A stretch of DNA of 64,000 bases from Cytophagales bacterium (GTDB taxonomy: Bacteria; Bacteroidota; Bacteroidia; Cytophagales; 172606-1), in NCBI GenBank assembly GCA_030446715.1, contig JAUJMU010000004.1:356931-420930 (forward strand). The letters are read 5' to 3'. The translations under genes and the position numbers were made by a program. Under the pieces are notes generated by a model, which made no database searches, was not told the origin of the DNA, and saw only the letters and a list, made by a program, of their open reading frames with translations. Shown here one piece after another: positions 30,672 to 37,963 of this stretch. Position 1 is the first letter of the stretch. The number at the start of each line of letters is the position of its first letter.

Positions 30672-31436
30672 CTACTGCACCACCCGCCAGCCACGGTACT
30701 GATACTGGTCCTGCTCCTCCAGCGCCTCCCGCATCCGGTCGGCCACCTTTCTTTTCAGCTCCGGCACATCGGCCATGGTGAGTCCGGCAACCTCCACCGG
30801 CTCCAGAAACACGGTAGTAATGACGCCCGGCCGCAGCACAAACGGACTACGGGGCAGCAGCCGCCGCGAGTTGAGAATAACCATCGGCATGATTGGCGTC
30901 TGCATCTCGACTGCCAGCCGGAAAGCGCCGTCCTGAAAAGGCAGCATCGGATCGGCAGTCCGGTTCATCTTCCCTTCCGGAAAAAGGAAAACCGAAATGC
31001 CGCTTGCCAGCTTTTCGCGCAGCGTACGCATGCTTTTCAGTTTGCTGGCCGTGCTGCTGCGGTCTACAGTGATTACAACGTACGGGTACAGCCAGCCGAA
31101 CACCGGCACCTTTTTCAGTTCAGATTTGCCCAGCGGCCGGAACTGGCCGGGAATTGCGGTTACAAACGCGGGCGAATCGAGGTAAGAGTTATGATTGGCC
31201 ACATACACGTAGGTACGGCCGGGCTCAATCTTGCTGCGCCCTACTGCCCGAAACCAGATACCGCACAGGCAGCCGAAAGAATTGCCCCAGACTTTCAGGA
31301 AAAAATAAGCAATCCTTCCTCCTGTTCGCTCGCCAAGTAAAAACGGAATTGTTACCAGGGGCAGTGAAAGGGTCATGATCAGGCAGAAAACTACAATCGA
31401 GTAGGCAAGGTATATTTTCAGAAAAAACTTCTTCAT
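30672..31436 (-). CDS. plsC: 1-acyl-sn-glycerol-3-phosphate acyltransferase
   Basis: The 254-aa protein has an N-terminal membrane region (KIYLAYSIVVFCLIMTLSLP and VTIPFLLG) and the acyltransferase motifs NHNSYLDSP (HX4D, ~80), a glycerol-phosphate-binding FPEGKMNR (~158) and MVILNSRRLLP. It acylates lysophosphatidate to phosphatidate at the inner membrane. FPEGKMNR departs from the common FPEGTRS, which is seen in divergent family members, so the acceptor could be another lysophospholipid or an aminolipid. Its start is 162 nt after the PrsW stop. Confidence 0.92.
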   Translation of the reverse strand: MKKFFLKIYLAYSIVVFCLIMTLSLPLVTIPFLLGERTGGRIAYFFLKVWGNSFGCLCGIWFRAVGRSKIEPGRTYVYVANHNSYLDSPAFVTAIPGQFRPLGKSELKKVPVFGWLYPYVVITVDRSSTASKLKSMRTLREKLASGISVFLFPEGKMNRTADPMLPFQDGAFRLAVEMQTPIMPMVILNSRRLLPRSPFVLRPGVITTVFLEPVEVAGLTMADVPELKRKVADRMREALEEQDQYQYRGWRVVQ

Positions 31437-31511
31437 GGTTTGATGCGCAATGCTGTTCCAGCTTCTGGTCTGCAGGAGTTAACGGAGAGCAGGGAGAAAA
31501 AACAGTCTGGA

Positions 31512-31594
31512 CTGAATTTTAAATTTCAAATGCCTGGTGCCAGATGAATATTTATCACTGAGCATTTAAAATTCAGCATTCAACATCTGGCGCC
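31512..31594. repeat. Interleaved inverted repeats
   Basis: CTGAATTTTAAAT (31512-31524) is complementary to ATTTAAAATTCAG (31564-31576), and GGTGCCAGATG (31536-31546) to CATCTGGCGCC (31584-31594; 10 of 11). The arms alternate A-B-A'-B', so both stems could form together only as a pseudoknot. It lies between two minus-strand genes. Confidence 0.6.
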
Positions 31595-31598
31595 GCTT

Positions 31599-32315
31599 CT
31601 ATCCTTTAAAAACTTCCCTCTCCTCCGGGTGCCATTCGTGGTGGCTGAACGGCGAGTTGAGGTTGTGCATCCGTATCGCCTTCAGCCCGAACCCGATACC
31701 CGATACCAGCGCCAGCACTGCCCCGATGGCCAGCAGCGGGTAATTCTTCATATACAGGCAAAAGTCGTAGACCGCATGCATCCCAATGGCACCCACCACT
31801 CCGGCGGTTTTGGGAAAAACTATTTTTGTCCGGTGCCTGAACTTCGCAAGGCCGACAAAATAGCCCATGATCACCCCGAAGGTGGCGTGCGCCGGCACGG
31901 CGGTAAACATCCGGATCAGGGCCACGCCCAGTCCGCCATCTACCACGTAAAACATATTTTCAAGAGTGGCAAACCCCATAGCGATCATCACGCCATAGGT
32001 AATGCCGTCAAAAGGCTCATTGAACTCCTTGCGGGGATAGAAAAAAATAATGAGAATCAGAAATTTACTGAACTCTTCGCTGAACCCGACGGCAAGGGCG
32101 TAGTAAAAACTCTCATCAAGGGCGGCAGTGAGTTGTAAACCAAACCCCTCAAATACACCATTCAGAAAGGAAGCCGGGAATATACTTACCGCTCCCAGAA
32201 AAAACGATTTCACCAGCAAGTGCAACGGCTCCCGGTCCAGCTTATCCTTCTCATAGATGAAAATAGCAATAGCAAATCCCGGTGCCACCGCCAGCGCTAA
32301 CAGGATGAAAATCAT
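31599..32315 (-). CDS. PrsW family intramembrane metalloprotease
   Basis: This 238-aa multi-pass protein has about seven hydrophobic segments. It contains the family motifs FSEEFSKFLIL (EExxK), ATLENMFYVVDGG (ExxxY/F type) and HATFGVIMGYFVGLAKF, which together form the presumed metal site in CAAX/PrsW proteins. PrsW in Bacillus cleaves an anti-sigma factor. The ECF sigma gene with its membrane partner lies just across the divergent promoter region (32528-34508), so a functional link is tempting, but it is only an inference from position. Confidence 0.9.
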   Translation of the reverse strand: MIFILLALAVAPGFAIAIFIYEKDKLDREPLHLLVKSFFLGAVSIFPASFLNGVFEGFGLQLTAALDESFYYALAVGFSEEFSKFLILIIFFYPRKEFNEPFDGITYGVMIAMGFATLENMFYVVDGGLGVALIRMFTAVPAHATFGVIMGYFVGLAKFRHRTKIVFPKTAGVVGAIGMHAVYDFCLYMKNYPLLAIGAVLALVSGIGFGLKAIRMHNLNSPFSHHEWHPEEREVFKG

Positions 32316-32527
32316 GGCTCAAGTTACGAAATAGCGCAACCGGCTCCAAGTATACCGGCCGGTTTGGGCTCCGCCAGGGTTGCCGGAGCCAGACTGCACG
32401 GGTCAGATTGGGAGAACCGTGCCGCTTTGATTACCTTTCTGAGACTGCGCAAAAGGAAAACGAAAAAATATTTTTATACCCACGCAACCGTTTTCCCGGA
32501 ACCTCCGTGCTGTTGACGATTCAGAAA

Positions 32528-33103
32528 ATGCCGGACGCCCTGACTACTGACCACCTGCAAATGCTACTTGACGGCTGCCTTCGTGGTGACCGCAAGTGCC
32601 AGGAACTGCTCTATCAGCAGTTCTACGGCTACGCCATGAGCATCTGCATGCGTTACGCCCGGAGCCGCGATGAAGCACTGGAAATCCTGAACGACGGTTT
32701 TCTGAAAGTTTTTACCCGCACGGCCCGCTACGATCCGGAACGTTCTTTCAAAGGCTGGCTGCGCCGGATTCTGATCAACACTGCGCTGGATCACTACCGC
32801 CAGCAGGTGAAGCATTACTACCACGAAGACACAGCAGAAGCAGTGGCGGCCCCAGTGGAAGCCTCCGCCATCAGTGAAATGTCCCACGCCGAACTGATCG
32901 GCCTGATTGCAAGGTTGAGTCCGGCCTACCGGCTGGTATTTAACCTGTACGTGATCGATGGATTTACACACGAAGAGATTGCGCAGCAACTGGGAATTTC
33001 GGCCGGAACTTCCAAATCCAATCTGGCCCGTGCCCGGATGCACTTAAAGGAAATGGTACAAAACAACAGCAAAAATGCCTACGCAGGAAATACCGGACAA
33101 TGA
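32528..33103 (+). CDS. ECF-type RNA polymerase sigma factor
   Basis: The ATG at 32528 gives 191 aa, normal for ECF factors; longer in-frame reading to 32408 adds low-complexity residues. Region 2 is CQELLYQQFYGYAMSICMRY through NDGFLKVFTRTARYDPERSF and WLRRILINTALDHYR; region 4 is RLSPAYRLVFNLYVIDGFTH and EEIAQQLGISAGTSKSNLAR, a complete helix-turn-helix. It directs polymerase to a specific promoter set under control of its membrane partner. The next gene starts 29 nt before this one ends, giving strong translational coupling. Targets are unknown. Confidence 0.93.
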   Translation: MPDALTTDHLQMLLDGCLRGDRKCQELLYQQFYGYAMSICMRYARSRDEALEILNDGFLKVFTRTARYDPERSFKGWLRRILINTALDHYRQQVKHYYHEDTAEAVAAPVEASAISEMSHAELIGLIARLSPAYRLVFNLYVIDGFTHEEIAQQLGISAGTSKSNLARARMHLKEMVQNNSKNAYAGNTGQ

Positions 33104-34508
33104 ATTCGACGACTTCTTCCGGAAGGCTGCCGGGGAGTTCTCGCCGGAGTTTGAGCCGGGGGCATGGAAGCAGATGGAGAAAATGCTGGATGACCATGAC
33201 GGCGGTGCGGGAGCATTCTGGTGGAAAAAAATGCTGCTTTCGGTAGCAGTATTGCTGGTGGGCAGCCTGGGAGGTCTGCTTTTTGTGAAGCTGGCAAAGC
33301 CTGAAACCCGGGCCGGAAAAACGGAGTTGTCCGCTGCCGCCCGGAAATATCCCCGGCTAGCCGCCGGGAGGAGAGATCCGCAAGAGGAGAGCCGGAGCAA
33401 TACATCTGTATCGGGAACGGCCGCTCAACCGGACCGTTCCACATCCGGCACTCCTGACAATGCCTCCGGAGAAGCTGCCGCACCCCGGCCTGAGCGCATT
33501 GAACCGGGCAATAGAAAGAGTGTGAAGAAAGCGGGCAGACCCGTTGAGTCAGCCGAACGGAGCACCGGAACAGAGAGCGGCAACGGAAACCGCACCAGAA
33601 ACAGGGGCAAAAGAGAAGTCCTTACGGGAAGTGCCATAAACCGGGGCACCAGCGGTGAAAAGGGAGAAAATAAAGTGACATCCGGAAACCGCGGCACCCG
33701 AAAGACGCCCAAAGCTTCACGCACGACAGCACTTGGTCTGCAGGATTTACAGGCAACGGCCGAAAACGAATCTTTCCCCGCTGTACCCGGACCCCTGCCG
33801 GCGAGAGGAATTATTGCCGGGGAGATTACCCTTGCCAGGCAGACGGTGCCTCCTCCCGTGGTGACAAGCGGGTCGGAGATTGAACCGAAAACCCGGCAGG
33901 GAAGCAATTTTGCAAGGTTCAGCATCGGGGCCATGTTGTCCCCGGACCTGAGTTCGGTCGGATTTTTTAACCGGCTCACGCCCGGCACCAATACCGGCCT
34001 GCAGCTGGAATACCGCCTGAGCAAACGCTTCTGGGTGGGTGTGGGGGCTATCTATTCGGTGAAACTGTACTCGGCTACCGTAGAAAACTACACCGTGCCC
34101 AAAGGTTTCTGGACGTACGGGGTGAAGCCTTCCGGCATTGATGCAAATTGTAAAATACTGGATCTGCCGGTGCACCTGCGTTTCGATGCCGTGCAGCGCG
34201 GCCGGTACAACCTGTTTCTGAGCACCGGCCTGTCTTCCTATATCATGCTCAGCGAGAAGTATAATTACTCTTATGACAGTTATGACCCGTACCTGAAGCC
34301 TTCATGGAGCGGCCGGCGCACCGGCGAATATTACTTCAGCGTAGCCAACCTGTCGGCCGGTTACGAACGGAACATGGGGCGCAATTTCTCATTGCAGGCA
34401 GAACCATTTCTGAAGTTGCCGCTGGGCGGGGTAGGTTTTGGCAAAGTAAGGCTGATCAGCAGCGGGATGTTTGTGTCGGTAAAATACCGGTTCATCAGAA
34501 ACAGATAA
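33075..34508 (+). CDS. Putative sigma regulator: cytosolic segment, one helix, long linker and C-terminal barrel
   Basis: This 477-aa protein overlaps the sigma gene by 29 nt. Residues 1-~52 are soluble and acidic (NEFDDFFRKAAGEFSPEFEP, AWKQMEKMLDDHD), followed by one helix at ~53-73 (LLSVAVLLVGSLGGLLFVKL) with no signal-peptide cleavage site. Residues ~75-275 are a disordered, Arg/Gly/Thr/Ser-rich linker. From ~276 the chain is a typical outer-membrane barrel (FARFSIGAMLSPDLSSVGFF, TGLQLEYRLSKRFWVGVGAI, to VRLISSGMFVSVKYRF). The simplest reading is an anti-sigma-like anchor in the inner membrane tied to an outer-membrane barrel in one polypeptide. Similar sigma-barrel gene pairs occur in Bacteroidota; the mechanism is unknown. 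Confidence 0.75.
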   Translation: MPTQEIPDNEFDDFFRKAAGEFSPEFEPGAWKQMEKMLDDHDGGAGAFWWKKMLLSVAVLLVGSLGGLLFVKLAKPETRAGKTELSAAARKYPRLAAGRRDPQEESRSNTSVSGTAAQPDRSTSGTPDNASGEAAAPRPERIEPGNRKSVKKAGRPVESAERSTGTESGNGNRTRNRGKREVLTGSAINRGTSGEKGENKVTSGNRGTRKTPKASRTTALGLQDLQATAENESFPAVPGPLPARGIIAGEITLARQTVPPPVVTSGSEIEPKTRQGSNFARFSIGAMLSPDLSSVGFFNRLTPGTNTGLQLEYRLSKRFWVGVGAIYSVKLYSATVENYTVPKGFWTYGVKPSGIDANCKILDLPVHLRFDAVQRGRYNLFLSTGLSSYIMLSEKYNYSYDSYDPYLKPSWSGRRTGEYYFSVANLSAGYERNMGRNFSLQAEPFLKLPLGGVGFGKVRLISSGMFVSVKYRFIRNR

Positions 34509-34547
34509 TTCTCAATCAATCTTTAACTATTTATTAACTACTATTTT

Positions 34548-35033
34548 ATGAAAAACCGCAATTTATTTTCATCCGGCAAGCTCGGCCTCTTCGCATGTTT
34601 AACGGCTCTTTTGCTGGTCACCGGCTGTGAGAAAGATGAAACAGACAATAACCTTGTCGCATTCAATAACATTGCCTTGTCGGGTGCCAATGAGGTACCA
34701 GCCGTATCCTCTTCGGGTTCGGGTACTTTTAACGGAACCTATAACCGGACCACCAAGGTGCTCACCTATACGGTGATGTGGTCATTAGGCACCCCTTCAG
34801 CCACTACGGCCGGCATGCACTTCCACGGCCCCGCCGAACTGACGGAAAGCAAGGGCGTCCGGGTACCCATTACCGGATTTCCTACGGGCAGCACCAACCA
34901 AACCTTTACTTCTTCAACTGCGCCCCTTGACGCAACCCAGGAGGAAGAGCTGCTCAACGGAAAGTGGTACATCAATATCCACAGTACCACTGTTCCGGGC
35001 GGCGAATTGCGGGGTCAGCTCATCCGGAGATAA
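34548..35033 (+). CDS. CHRD-domain lipoprotein
   Basis: This 161-aa protein has a lipoprotein signal (GLFACLTALLLVTGC, Cys27) and then one CHRD domain: NNIALSGANEVPAVSSSGSG, KVLTYTVMWSLG, AGMHFHGPAE and the closing WYINIHSTTVPGGELRGQL. CHRD domains are named after chordin, occur in many bacterial secreted proteins, and have no settled bacterial function. It is probably attached to a membrane on the periplasmic or outer face. It starts 39 nt after the barrel gene, on the same strand, and a hairpin terminator follows, so it may be read from the sigma operon. Confidence 0.9.
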   Translation: MKNRNLFSSGKLGLFACLTALLLVTGCEKDETDNNLVAFNNIALSGANEVPAVSSSGSGTFNGTYNRTTKVLTYTVMWSLGTPSATTAGMHFHGPAELTESKGVRVPITGFPTGSTNQTFTSSTAPLDATQEEELLNGKWYINIHSTTVPGGELRGQLIRR

Positions 35034-35065
35034 TCCGGCCAGAGAAAGAAATGGTCCACCTCCGG

Positions 35066-35106
35066 CCGGCCTGATCATTTGGGTGAATCCTGAATGATCA
35101 GGCCGG
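35066..35106 (+). terminator. Terminator-like hairpin after the first CHRD gene
   Basis: CCGGCCTGATCATT (35066-35079) pairs perfectly with AATGATCAGGCCGG (35093-35106), a 14-bp stem with a 13-nt loop. Only TTT follows, so termination strength is uncertain. Confidence 0.65.
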
Positions 35107-35171
35107 TTTCCAAAAACTTCAGGACTACAATAGCAAATATCCTTTCGGGATAAAGGACAGCTTTTGGCCTT

Positions 35172-35207
35172 TGTAAAACATTTTACATAAGTAGTATAAA
35201 TACTACT
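35172..35207. promoter_or_regulatory. Paired palindromes upstream of the second CHRD gene (candidate operators)
   Basis: Two perfect inverted repeats with 2-nt centres lie 2 nt apart: TGTAAAA-CA-TTTTACA (35172-35187) and AGTAGTAT-AA-ATACTACT (35190-35207). A third small one, TATCC/GGATA, precedes them near 35137-35151. They sit 66-100 nt before the start of the next gene, where a dimeric regulator could bind. Confidence 0.55.
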
Positions 35208-35272
35208 GTATGACCGGCACGGAGCTATAATCAGAATTTTGTTTCCTTATCATAACCTAAACCTCAATGACC

Positions 35273-35806
35273 ATGAAAAAAGTAGTGATTGCTGCTGCCC
35301 TCCTGATGAGTGGGATGCTTTTCCAGAGCTGCGACAACAGTGCGGTGACGCCTGAAGCTGACGCCCGGCCCAATGATGCCGCTGCCCGCATGGGTGGCCG
35401 GAGCTACAACACCCACTTGGCGGGTGATGAAGAAGTGCAGCCAGCCAGCGTCGGGCCGGTCATGACCAATGCCACCGGACAGGCCAATTTCAAGCTCAGC
35501 AAAGATGGCACCCAACTCCATTACAAACTCATCGCAGCCAATATTGAAAGTGTGCTCTTTGCCCACCTGCACCTGGCTCCGAAAGGCCAAAACGGACCAG
35601 TAGTGGTCACGCTTTTCCATCCGATGCCGGCGGTAATGAGCCCTCAGGGTGTAATTGCGGAAGGCGTTATCACGTCTGCTTCCCTGTCGGGTCCTCTGGT
35701 CGGTATGCCGTTGTCAGACCTGATTACCGCCATTGAAGCAGGAAACATTTACGTGAACGTTCACTCCCTCAGGTACCCGGGTGGTGAACTGAGAGGCCAG
35801 TTGTAA
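35273..35806 (+). CDS. CHRD-domain lipoprotein (second copy)
   Basis: Starting at the ATG at 35273 (another at 35267 adds two residues) the product is 177 aa. The signal KVVIAAALLMSGMLFQSC ends in a lipobox cysteine. A single CHRD domain follows: RSYNTHLAGDEEVQPASVGP, QLHYKLIAANIESVLFAHLH, NGPVVVTLFHP and the closing YVNVHSLRYPGGELRGQL. It differs clearly from the first copy, so it is an old paralogue, not a recent duplication. It has its own leader with palindromes, and it is followed 179 nt later by the Rieske gene. Function unknown. Confidence 0.9.
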   Translation: MKKVVIAAALLMSGMLFQSCDNSAVTPEADARPNDAAARMGGRSYNTHLAGDEEVQPASVGPVMTNATGQANFKLSKDGTQLHYKLIAANIESVLFAHLHLAPKGQNGPVVVTLFHPMPAVMSPQGVIAEGVITSASLSGPLVGMPLSDLITAIEAGNIYVNVHSLRYPGGELRGQL

Positions 35807-35985
35807 AAATCGTCCGGCAGGCACGGAGACCGGAGATGATTCACGTCCGGTTTCCTGCTCCGCCGGGTTTTCCGGATTCCCGCTGGAATTCTCCCCTTCC
35901 TCCGGTTGATGGGCCTGTGTATGATAACTTCTACTGGCCTGACTCTTACCTGATTCATTCTCCACCAAACCAAATCTCCCGCCCT

Positions 35986-36441
35986 ATGAAACGATCCGAA
36001 TTTATCCGCAGCCTCGGCCTGAGCAGCGGTGCCCTGATGGCTTTTTATTGCATGGGCGGCCTTACGGCCTGCTCCAGTGAAAAAGGTGATCCCGCTCCAG
36101 ATAAAGCCCCCGGAGCCGGCGCGAAAGTCGATGTCTCCCTTGATCTGAACAGTGCCGATTACAGCAAGCTGAAGACCAACGGAGAATTTGTCGTCCTGAA
36201 GGACCAGCCGGTAATTGTAGCCCGAAAAAACGACGGCACTTTTGTGGCGCTTGCCAAAGAGTGTACCCATCAGGGAACCACCATAAGCTACCAGGCGGCC
36301 AATGACCGGTTCAACTGCCCCGCCCACGGCTCCAACTTCTCGGCTACGGGTGGTGTACTCAACGGTCCGGCCACTGCTCCGCTGAAGCAATTCAAAACTG
36401 AATTCAACAGCAGCACCAACATCCTCCGGGTTTACGAGTAA
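35986..36441 (+). CDS. Rieske [2Fe-2S] lipoprotein
   Basis: From the ATG at 35986 the product is 151 aa. A signal segment (FIRSLGLSSGALMAFYCMGG) ends in the lipobox LTAC (Cys29), without a twin-arginine pair. The cluster motifs are CTHQG (Cys93, His95) and CPAHGS (Cys111, His114), the full C-x-H...C-x-x-H set, so it should bind a [2Fe-2S] cluster. Length fits a stand-alone Rieske domain rather than a bc1 subunit. It is followed by DUF5777 and YceI genes, a recurring group in Bacteroidota. It probably passes electrons in the envelope; the partner is unknown. Confidence 0.92.
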   Translation: MKRSEFIRSLGLSSGALMAFYCMGGLTACSSEKGDPAPDKAPGAGAKVDVSLDLNSADYSKLKTNGEFVVLKDQPVIVARKNDGTFVALAKECTHQGTTISYQAANDRFNCPAHGSNFSATGGVLNGPATAPLKQFKTEFNSSTNILRVYE

Positions 36442-36487
36442 CGGGAAACTTTGCGCCGGCCCACTGCCCATCCAACCCCTTATTCCC

Positions 36488-37378
36488 ATGAAAAGTATAA
36501 TCTTTTACGCCATCTTCGGCCTGCTGCTTGCCCCCGCCGGACTACGGGCCCAGGATGACCTGCTCGGTATGCTCGGCGGCGACAGCACCGGCACCGGTTT
36601 TGCGCAGGCAACATTCAAATCCTCGCGGGTGATCAACGGTCATTCGGTGGAAACGCTGCCCCGCCAGCACCTCGACTTCCGGATTTCGCACCGCTTCGGC
36701 CGGCTCAATTCCGGGGCGTACGAACTCTGGGGCCTCGACCAGGCGCGGATCAGACTGGGCCTGGAATACGGTGCCACCGACCGGCTGATGGTTGGCGTGG
36801 GGCGCAGTTCCTTCCAGAAGCTGTACGACGGATTCGTAAAATACAAGTTGCTGCGGCAGACGGAAGGCTCTTTGCCCATGCCCGTTACCCTGACCGTACT
36901 GAGCGGGGCCTACCTGACGGCCGAACGGTTTGCGCCCGAGCTGGAAATGACCCTGAAGTCGCGGCTGAGCTACAGCGGTCAGCTGCTGATCGCGAGGAAG
37001 ATGAGTGAACGGCTCTCCCTGCAACTGATGCCTACCCTTCTTTACCGCAACCGGACCAACTTTACCGGCGAAAGCAACGCCGTGATGGCACTGGGCGTGG
37101 CTGGCCGCTACAAGATCAGCAAACGGGTGGCCTTCAACGGGGAGTACTACGCAGTGCTGCCTGATCAGCTGAACCCGGCGTACCACAATTCACTCGCCCT
37201 TGGCTTTGACATCGAAACCGGCGGACACGTATTCGCCCTGCATTTTACCAATTCACTGGGTATGGCGGAAAAGCAGTTTCTGACCGAGACCGGGGGCCGT
37301 TGGGGAGAAGGTGATATTCACTACGGCTTCAATATTTCCCGGACGTTCAGCCTGACCCCCCGTACCCGGAAAAATTAA
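36488..37378 (+). CDS. DUF5777 family beta-barrel protein
   Basis: This 296-aa protein has a signal peptide (IIFYAIFGLLLAPAGLRAQ) and the family core ARIRLGLEYGATDRLMVGVG preceded by RQHLDFRISHRFGRLNSG, and then alternating amphipathic strands (LQLMPTLLYRNRTNFTGES, KRVAFNGEYYAVLPDQLNPA, HVFALHFTNSLGMAEKQFL). It should be a small outer-membrane barrel. It sits 46 nt after the Rieske gene and 27 nt before yceI, clearly one operon. The family has no characterised function; the steady association with Rieske and YceI proteins suggests a role in envelope electron transfer or quinone-type ligands. Confidence 0.9.
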   Translation: MKSIIFYAIFGLLLAPAGLRAQDDLLGMLGGDSTGTGFAQATFKSSRVINGHSVETLPRQHLDFRISHRFGRLNSGAYELWGLDQARIRLGLEYGATDRLMVGVGRSSFQKLYDGFVKYKLLRQTEGSLPMPVTLTVLSGAYLTAERFAPELEMTLKSRLSYSGQLLIARKMSERLSLQLMPTLLYRNRTNFTGESNAVMALGVAGRYKISKRVAFNGEYYAVLPDQLNPAYHNSLALGFDIETGGHVFALHFTNSLGMAEKQFLTETGGRWGEGDIHYGFNISRTFSLTPRTRKN

Positions 37379-37405
37379 ATCTATTATCCACCTGACTCCA
37401 AAGCC

Positions 37406-37963
37406 ATGAAATACATATGCGTGATTTTCAGCGGCTGGCTTCTGCTATTGGCTGGCAGTGGCTTTGCCCAGCACCTGTATTCAGCCCAAAGCGGCACTGT
37501 CTCTTTTTACTCCGGAGCGCCTCTCGAAGACATTGAGGCCAGAACCAGCAAAGCCCAGTCCGTGATCGATACGGATACCGGCGAGATTGCCGTTAAAATT
37601 CCCATCCGCAGTTTCGTCTTTCCAAACGGGCTGATGCAGGAGCATTTCAATGAAAACTACATGGAGAGCGGCAAATACCCTTTTGCCACTTTCAAAGGCC
37701 GGATCAACGAAACCATAGTCTGGACCAAAGACGGCACCTATCCCGTAACTGCTACCGGCAAGCTGAACATCCACGGCGTGGAGCAGGACCGCACCATCAG
37801 CGGCAAGCTGGAAGTGACCGGTGGCCAGCTTCAGCTGGATGCTGGTTTTCCGGTTGCCCTTGCCGATTACAACATCAGAATTCCCACGGTTGTGTTTCAC
37901 AAAATTGCGGCAAGCATTGACGTCACGACCCGTTTCCGGTACCTGCCCGGCGTGAAGCAGTAA
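37406..37963 (+). CDS. YceI family periplasmic lipid/isoprenoid-binding protein
   Basis: This 185-aa protein has a signal peptide (GWLLLLAGSGFAQ) and a lipocalin-like YceI domain: YSAQSGTVSFYSGAPLEDIE, IRSFVFPNGLMQEHFNENYM, ESGKYPFATFKGRI, ATGKLNIHGVEQDRTI and IRIPTVVFHKIAASIDV. YceI proteins bind polyisoprenoid chains in a barrel cavity. It ends the Rieske-DUF5777-YceI operon. Confidence 0.93.
   Translation: MKYICVIFSGWLLLLAGSGFAQHLYSAQSGTVSFYSGAPLEDIEARTSKAQSVIDTDTGEIAVKIPIRSFVFPNGLMQEHFNENYMESGKYPFATFKGRINETIVWTKDGTYPVTATGKLNIHGVEQDRTISGKLEVTGGQLQLDAGFPVALADYNIRIPTVVFHKIAASIDVTTRFRYLPGVKQ

Follow-up and report, generated by a model that had tools for sequence, protein, structure and literature searches.

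The window (the whole stretch of DNA analysed, 64,000 nucleotides) likely carries a Dma-type sigma/anti-sigma pair that autoregulates an envelope redox operon, with putative binding of the sigma factor, putative release and putative control of the downstream gene module. The architecture of the 477-aa protein, its pairing with the sigma gene, the promoter-like motif and the conserved neighbourhood are computational observations, on which the following mechanism is built. In the 477-aa protein, the first ~47 residues would hold the ECF sigma factor at the inner membrane, and the remainder, made up of the transmembrane helix, a disordered tether and a barrel in the outer membrane, would complete a single chain from the cytosol to the cell surface. 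The sigma factor would be freed by an event at the barrel and would then read a GCAACC-N16-CG(A/T) promoter to give more of the pair and would also turn on the downstream envelope electron-transfer genes (CHRD, CHRD, Rieske, DUF5777 and YceI). We infer sigma binding by the N-terminal part since published Dma systems work in this way and since this part stays beside the sigma gene in a barrel-less form of the protein. Regulation of the electron-carrier module by the pair is presumed, and the signal, judged from gene content alone, would be redox-related. The features of the pair are as follows.

32484..32509, plus strand: promoter-like element GCAACC-N16-CGT(G), a putative ECF autoregulatory promoter (motif scan)
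32528..33103, plus strand: ECF sigma factor, 191 aa (ORF; Pfam and NCBIfam matches)
33075..34508, plus strand: putative Dma-type trans-envelope anti-sigma factor, 477 aa (overlaps the sigma gene by 29 nt; conservation, AlphaFold2)
33075..33215, plus strand: predicted N-terminal cytosolic domain of two helices (residues 1-47), presumed to bind the sigma factor (AlphaFold2 helices 8-21 and 28-43)
33216..33293, plus strand: inner-membrane helix, residues 48-73 (AlphaFold2; hydropathy and charge survey)
33294..33914, plus strand: disordered tether across the periplasm, residues 74-280 (pLDDT about 45-55 over most of its length and 66-69 in the last 20 residues)
33915..34505, plus strand: eight-strand outer-membrane barrel, residues 281-477 (AlphaFold2, Foldseek)
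34149..34151, plus strand: Cys359, sole cysteine of the protein, in barrel strand 4 (invariant in 18/18)

The sigma gene and its overlapping partner

The sigma frame runs from an ATG at 32528 to a stop at 33103. A longer, TTG-started frame from 32408 is also present, and the ATG was preferred because the promoter-like motif lies at 32484-32509. The product matched Pfam sigma region 2 (7.1e-15) and region 4 (4.5e-17), and the NCBIfam model sigma70-ECF scored above its cut-off, with the other models shown falling below theirs. An earlier note on this DNA had described an ECF sigma gene overlapping its neighbour by 29 nt; both open reading frames are present, and by their coordinates the overlap spans 33075-33103. 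The same note had proposed a survey of sigma/barrel gene pairs, and this survey supported the partnership. In a scan of named genomes the best 80 of 83 relatives were kept as loci, 75 of them with a complete pair, and they belong to Hymenobacter (25 loci), Spirosoma, Fibrella, Siphonobacter, Xanthocytophaga, Lacihabitans, Niastella, Echinicola, Fodinibius and other genera. A sigma gene was found just 5' of the anti-sigma gene in 76 of 81 loci (these best 80 of 83 plus the window), and therefore the pairing is not due to chance; the five loci lacking an upstream sigma gene are contig-edge fragments. The two genes overlapped in 70 of the 75 complete pairs (from the best 80 of 83), most commonly by 26 nt (23/75). 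Matches to the 477-aa protein occurred in 34 genomes among 98 relatives, the genome of the window included, and phylum-wide in 125/395 genomes, some of these matches covering just the N-terminal part. The genome of the window yielded 50 ECF-type matches, 30 of which were taken as loci, and a Dma-profile gene adjoins the sigma gene in five of these 30.

Cell-surface signalling of the FecI/FecR/FecA type relies on three proteins, among them a TonB-dependent receptor. As in that type, an outer-membrane event would be passed to an ECF sigma factor in the mechanism proposed here; unlike its three proteins, the present system has a single chain with a small eight-strand barrel, and no TonB-dependent receptor was found beside the pair among the nine proteins scanned from 30672 to 37963.

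The closest likeness is to the Dma family of Bacteroides. In the accessible part of PMC13088901, Dma proteins are described as an N-terminal anti-sigma domain, a transmembrane helix, a disordered tether and a C-terminal barrel encoded beside an ECF21-type sigma factor, and Dma1 and Dma2 are reported to restrain ECF21 sigma factors and to affect vesicle formation. The window shares this domain order (an N-terminal domain with one transmembrane helix, a long disordered tether and a C-terminal barrel) as well as the adjacent ECF sigma gene, a resemblance of architecture. Unlike Dma1 and Dma2, as far as that part of the paper describes them, the present protein has an electron-transfer module as its neighbours and a lone cysteine in its barrel. 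Dma3 of B. thetaiotaomicron shares the Dma architecture but, according to the same text, has its own N-terminal sigma domain, whereas here the sigma factor is encoded by a separate, overlapping gene. When introducing the family, the authors cite EcfO of Bacteroides fragilis, and the title of the cited paper ties this ECF sigma factor to oxidative stress in that species (via the accessible part of PMC13088901). The accessible part of PMC8999054 does not treat ECF21. The idea of a one-chain trans-envelope regulator, put forward in the earlier note, is thus partly upheld, its architecture and sigma partnership being well backed by conservation, but it is not new, since the design has been published as the Dma family (PMC13088901, accessible part). 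What goes beyond Dma is a probable direct regulon (the envelope redox module), the promoter-like motif and the split form described below.

Electron-transfer genes downstream of the pair

Five genes follow the pair, all on the plus strand, in the order CHRD, CHRD, Rieske, DUF5777 and YceI.

34548..35033, plus strand: CHRD-domain protein, probable lipoprotein by eye (PF07452, 2.4e-23)
35267..35806, plus strand: second CHRD-domain protein, probable lipoprotein by eye (PF07452, 1.4e-26)
35986..36441, plus strand: Rieske [2Fe-2S] protein with a lipobox-like N-terminus and intact CTH...CPAH ligands (PF00355, 2.3e-15)
36488..37378, plus strand: DUF5777 membrane beta-barrel protein (PF19089, 4.9e-91)
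37406..37963, plus strand: YceI-family protein (PF04264, 2.9e-12)

The neighbourhood was compared across 64 informative loci, which have a complete pair and at least 4 kb of downstream sequence (16 of the 80 named loci, the best 80 of 83, were excluded). YceI together with either DUF5777 or a protein family that we call c19 was found in 42/64, an electron carrier in 47/64, and all of these together in 40/64. The carriers were mutually exclusive, namely Rieske (12 loci), cytochrome c (24) and an SprB-cytochrome (11), with a union of 47; likewise, DUF5777 (40) and c19 (8) excluded each other, with a union of 48. CxxCH is present in 31 of the 45 proteins labelled cytochrome-like, while the SprB-type examples have CX4CH instead. 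A Lipoprotein_15 gene lay near the pair in 10/64 loci and CHRD in only 2/64. The set of YceI with DUF5777 or c19 was absent from 22/64 loci, and YceI, DUF5777 and c19 were all missing in 16/64, mostly of the Niastella group. In addition, 20 regions were drawn from the phylum search, and 13 of these belong to a family (f43) of another class than the window's; YceI and DUF5777 stand beside the pair in 13/13 of them, and a cytochrome c-like gene in seven.

The c19 family (L113:9421-10101 and its relatives) replaces DUF5777 in Spirosoma- and Lacihabitans-type loci. Five of its histidines are invariant across 10 rows, a model with a mean pLDDT of 64 shows four long helices, and weak matches to Pfam b561 were obtained for 7/10 members (best 3.1e-4, the one shown being below the cut-off). 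A PDB sequence search with c19 gave no match and Foldseek no significant one, superoxide oxidase appearing at E 1.4 only. Because of the four helices, the five invariant histidines and the weak b561 matches, c19 is likely a b-type cytochrome. The genome of the window has one complete DUF5777 gene, the window's own. A second match there is in pieces (contig C10:254628-255363, L241-L244), and it may therefore reflect gene decay or a sequencing error.

In the openly accessible literature, no paper was found in which Dma-type regulators are connected to YceI, Rieske or DUF5777 proteins; within the literature searched, both the clade and its module therefore appear to be new. The conserved electron-carrier set behind the pair hints at what Dma-type switches may respond to. 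With the recurrent module, the readable motif, the carrier swaps and the split form, the signal and the direct targets of Dma-type systems outside Bacteroides become testable, and Hymenobacter and Spirosoma are culturable genera for such questions.

The promoter-like motif and control of the module

The strict motif was defined as GCAACC-N15-17-CG(A/T). It was found upstream of the sigma gene in 60 of the 74 loci with enough sequence (window included; from the best 80 of 83), that is, in 24/24 Hymenobacter loci, in 35/49 others and in the window, with a spacer of 16 nt in 49 and of 17 nt in 11. Against these 60, dinucleotide shuffles (100 rounds) gave a mean of 0.46 and a maximum of 3, and 497 permuted motifs a mean of 0.59 and a maximum of 6; since the loci are related, the shuffles overstate independence. 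Among the 14/74 loci with no strict motif before the sigma gene, three have a copy before Lipoprotein_15 and four a looser form. In L117, L138 and L149 (two Spirosoma, one Fibrivirga) Lipoprotein_15 opens the gene row, and the motif precedes it and not the sigma gene. DUF5777 lies on the opposite strand in L145, L165, L166 and L169, and a strict copy stands before it in L166 and L169; in L145 a motif copy falls within DUF5777, right after its predicted start, and in L165 DUF5777 has none. The strict motif also precedes DUF5777 of L158, Rieske of L131 and L141, and c19 of L109. When the 150 nt around each ORF's first start codon were scanned by gene class, the motif preceded 12/180 module genes (one of these copies, in L132, sits within the preceding gene) versus 3/562 other genes, with a Fisher p of 7e-6 that likewise overstates independence between related loci. 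By the same scan, it preceded 51/73 sigma genes and 0/72 dma genes. The motif was near the sigma gene in 0/13 f43 loci; therefore, given also the 14 motif-less loci above, the promoter is not universal.

Within the window, no second strict copy precedes CHRD, Rieske or YceI, and a further strict copy lies at 37047, inside the DUF5777 gene. The strong form of the motif occurs exactly once in the genome of the window, before the sigma gene described here. Allowing one mismatch gave one more match, which means nothing by itself, since a reversed control pattern gave 4. Of the 30 ECF loci of this genome, 23 were scanned for the motif, which was recovered only at a pair on contig C3; the window's pair was missed because of its upstream TTG, and the scan may therefore miss others. 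The C3 pair (L072:7705-9742) is a second full-length one; its motif ends in CGAG where the window's has CGTG, and a Lipoprotein_15-type gene comes next. The two pairs are possibly insulated paralogues.

In the accessible part of PMC13088901, dma1 and dma2 mutants of B. thetaiotaomicron are reported to over-produce vesicles, so a pair whose main role lies in vesicle formation or in the composition of the surface, with the redox genes as neighbours by descent, has a precedent. We consider this improbable here, as the module is found repeatedly with one carrier exchanged for another and its genes in a different order, and some of its members are accompanied by the motif; control of the redox module by the pair remains the preferred reading.

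Divergent from the sigma gene, on the minus strand at 31599-32315, lies a gene for a PrsW-family intramembrane protease (Pfam PrsW 6.5e-37, yet below the cut-off of the NCBIfam PrsW model), the sole PrsW match in the genome. In Bacillus, PrsW cuts RsiW, and cleavage of the anti-sigma factor by this neighbour could similarly provide the switch. A PrsW gene is also near the pair in a MAG of the same genus (L062/L097), but there it is separated by ~2 kb and another ORF, this MAG is the only such case among the 64 loci, and no PrsW gene was found at the other pairs within 3 kb upstream or 5 kb downstream. A switch through this protease is thus decidedly unlikely, and PrsW was rejected as an obligatory partner. 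Release of the sigma factor upon an event at the barrel remains the proposed mechanism.

Architecture of the 477-aa protein and its split sister form

AlphaFold2, run on a 51-row alignment of homologues (mean pLDDT 73.1, pTM 0.52), predicted helices at residues 8-21 and 28-43, the transmembrane helix at 48-73, a low-confidence stretch of ~207 residues at 74-280 and a barrel of eight strands between 282 and 473, in blocks at pLDDT 84-98. By Foldseek, the barrel resembles those of the OmpA, NspA and Ail types, with TM-scores by target of 0.70 (9fzc), 0.74 (9fzd), 0.74 (1p4t) and 0.60 (Ail, 3qra). Pfam OMP_b-brl_2 matched the 477-aa protein at 1.1e-4, below its curated cut-off, and 36/51 family members at E<=0.01. 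Searching PDB sequences with the Dma profile gave 11 matches (best E 0.0036), all to unrelated helical or low-complexity proteins. D12 and W31 are at least 90% conserved in the 51 rows. In addition, 76 proteins were surveyed, namely 75 named ones (from the best 80 of 83) and that of the window. The net charge of the N-terminal part was negative in 62/76, and the most hydrophobic 19-mer started at residue 46-63 (median 52). Lysine and arginine were more numerous on the N side of the helix than on the C side in 66/76; the reverse was seen in 3/76, among them the window protein (2 on the N side versus 4 on the C side). No lipobox was found at the helix in any of the 76, and AxA occurred just past it in 10/76. 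When the final 197 residues are counted as barrel, the tether had a family minimum of 132 aa and a median of about 234 across the 76 proteins; stretched out, a 132-residue tether would reach ~48 nm, which would exceed what the periplasm needs. At the level of prediction, then, the anatomy given in the earlier note (an acidic start, one helix, ~200 disordered residues and a barrel) agrees with AlphaFold2, with Foldseek and with the charge survey.

The earlier note had also named a cleaved signal as evidence that would count against the idea, and the position of the helix behind a conserved helical stretch, together with the lipobox, AxA and charge counts, disfavours it; the helix looks like a membrane anchor and not a cleaved signal. 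That it is nevertheless a signal peptide, leaving as the mature protein an ordinary barrel plugged by a long disordered segment, with the gene overlap serving translational coupling only, is very hard to credit: the 29-nt overlap by itself is also compatible with coupling, and the AxA cases and the C-side charge of the window helix lean that way, but about 47 conserved residues precede the helix, the lipobox is absent, the positive charge lies mostly on the N side, and homologues of the N-terminal part, mostly barrel-less, adjoin a sigma gene in 31/32 loci (L228-L239 and L245-L264, among the matches listed). A membrane-anchored chain continuing into the outer-membrane barrel is the architecture that we adopt.

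The barrel holds a single cysteine, C359, which is invariant in 18/18 and at least 90% conserved in the 51 rows. Among the 75 named proteins (from the best 80 of 83), a cysteine is present at the same distance from the C-terminus in 73 and is the sole cysteine in 67, and two proteins have no cysteine at all. Strand order in the model would place C359 in strand 4, close to its outer end, and from the way polar and non-polar residues alternate its side chain would face the lumen.

The 32 loci mentioned above were taken from the matches listed that cover the N-terminal part, the transmembrane helix and the tether only. A split form was found in 28 of them (L228-L233, L237-L239, L245, L246 and L248-L264, among the matches listed), in which a short, barrel-less Dma-like protein of 225-331 aa is followed by a same-strand gene of about 270-530 aa. 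Most products of these third genes carry a hydrophobic stretch near the N-terminus and end in sequences resembling SFGIRL or SLGLRFDLN; OMP_b-brl_2 matched at E<=0.01 in 15/28 and OMP_b-brl in two (possibly among the 15), and one of the 28 is a DUF4010/MgtC protein. Therefore, a two-chain version exists beside the one-chain version, also in the genome of the window (L245, L246). The third-gene profile found nothing at 20 other ECF regions of that genome, one of them with a Dma-like gene. An hhalign comparison of the Dma barrel with the third-gene profile gave a probability of 4.5%, which is not significant, and the two barrels therefore need not be orthologous. The one-chain and split forms appear to be analogous layouts, not necessarily related by fusion or fission.

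A bolder proposal, which we offer tentatively and regard as rather doubtful, is a trans-envelope redox relay. The lumen-facing lone cysteine near the outer face would read oxidants or electron flow at the outer membrane and, along the single chain, would set how much is made of an interchangeable carrier module, which comprises YceI, either a Rieske protein or a cytochrome c, and either DUF5777 or a b561-like protein. The widespread split form, with its inner-membrane anti-sigma factor and separate outer-membrane protein, would mean that one chain or two can do the same job.

One further Dma-like protein of the genome was seen beside a sigma gene on contig C18 (L247). It is 567 aa long and matches the N-terminal part of the profile only, and it may be a third one-chain regulator with a different C-terminal part.
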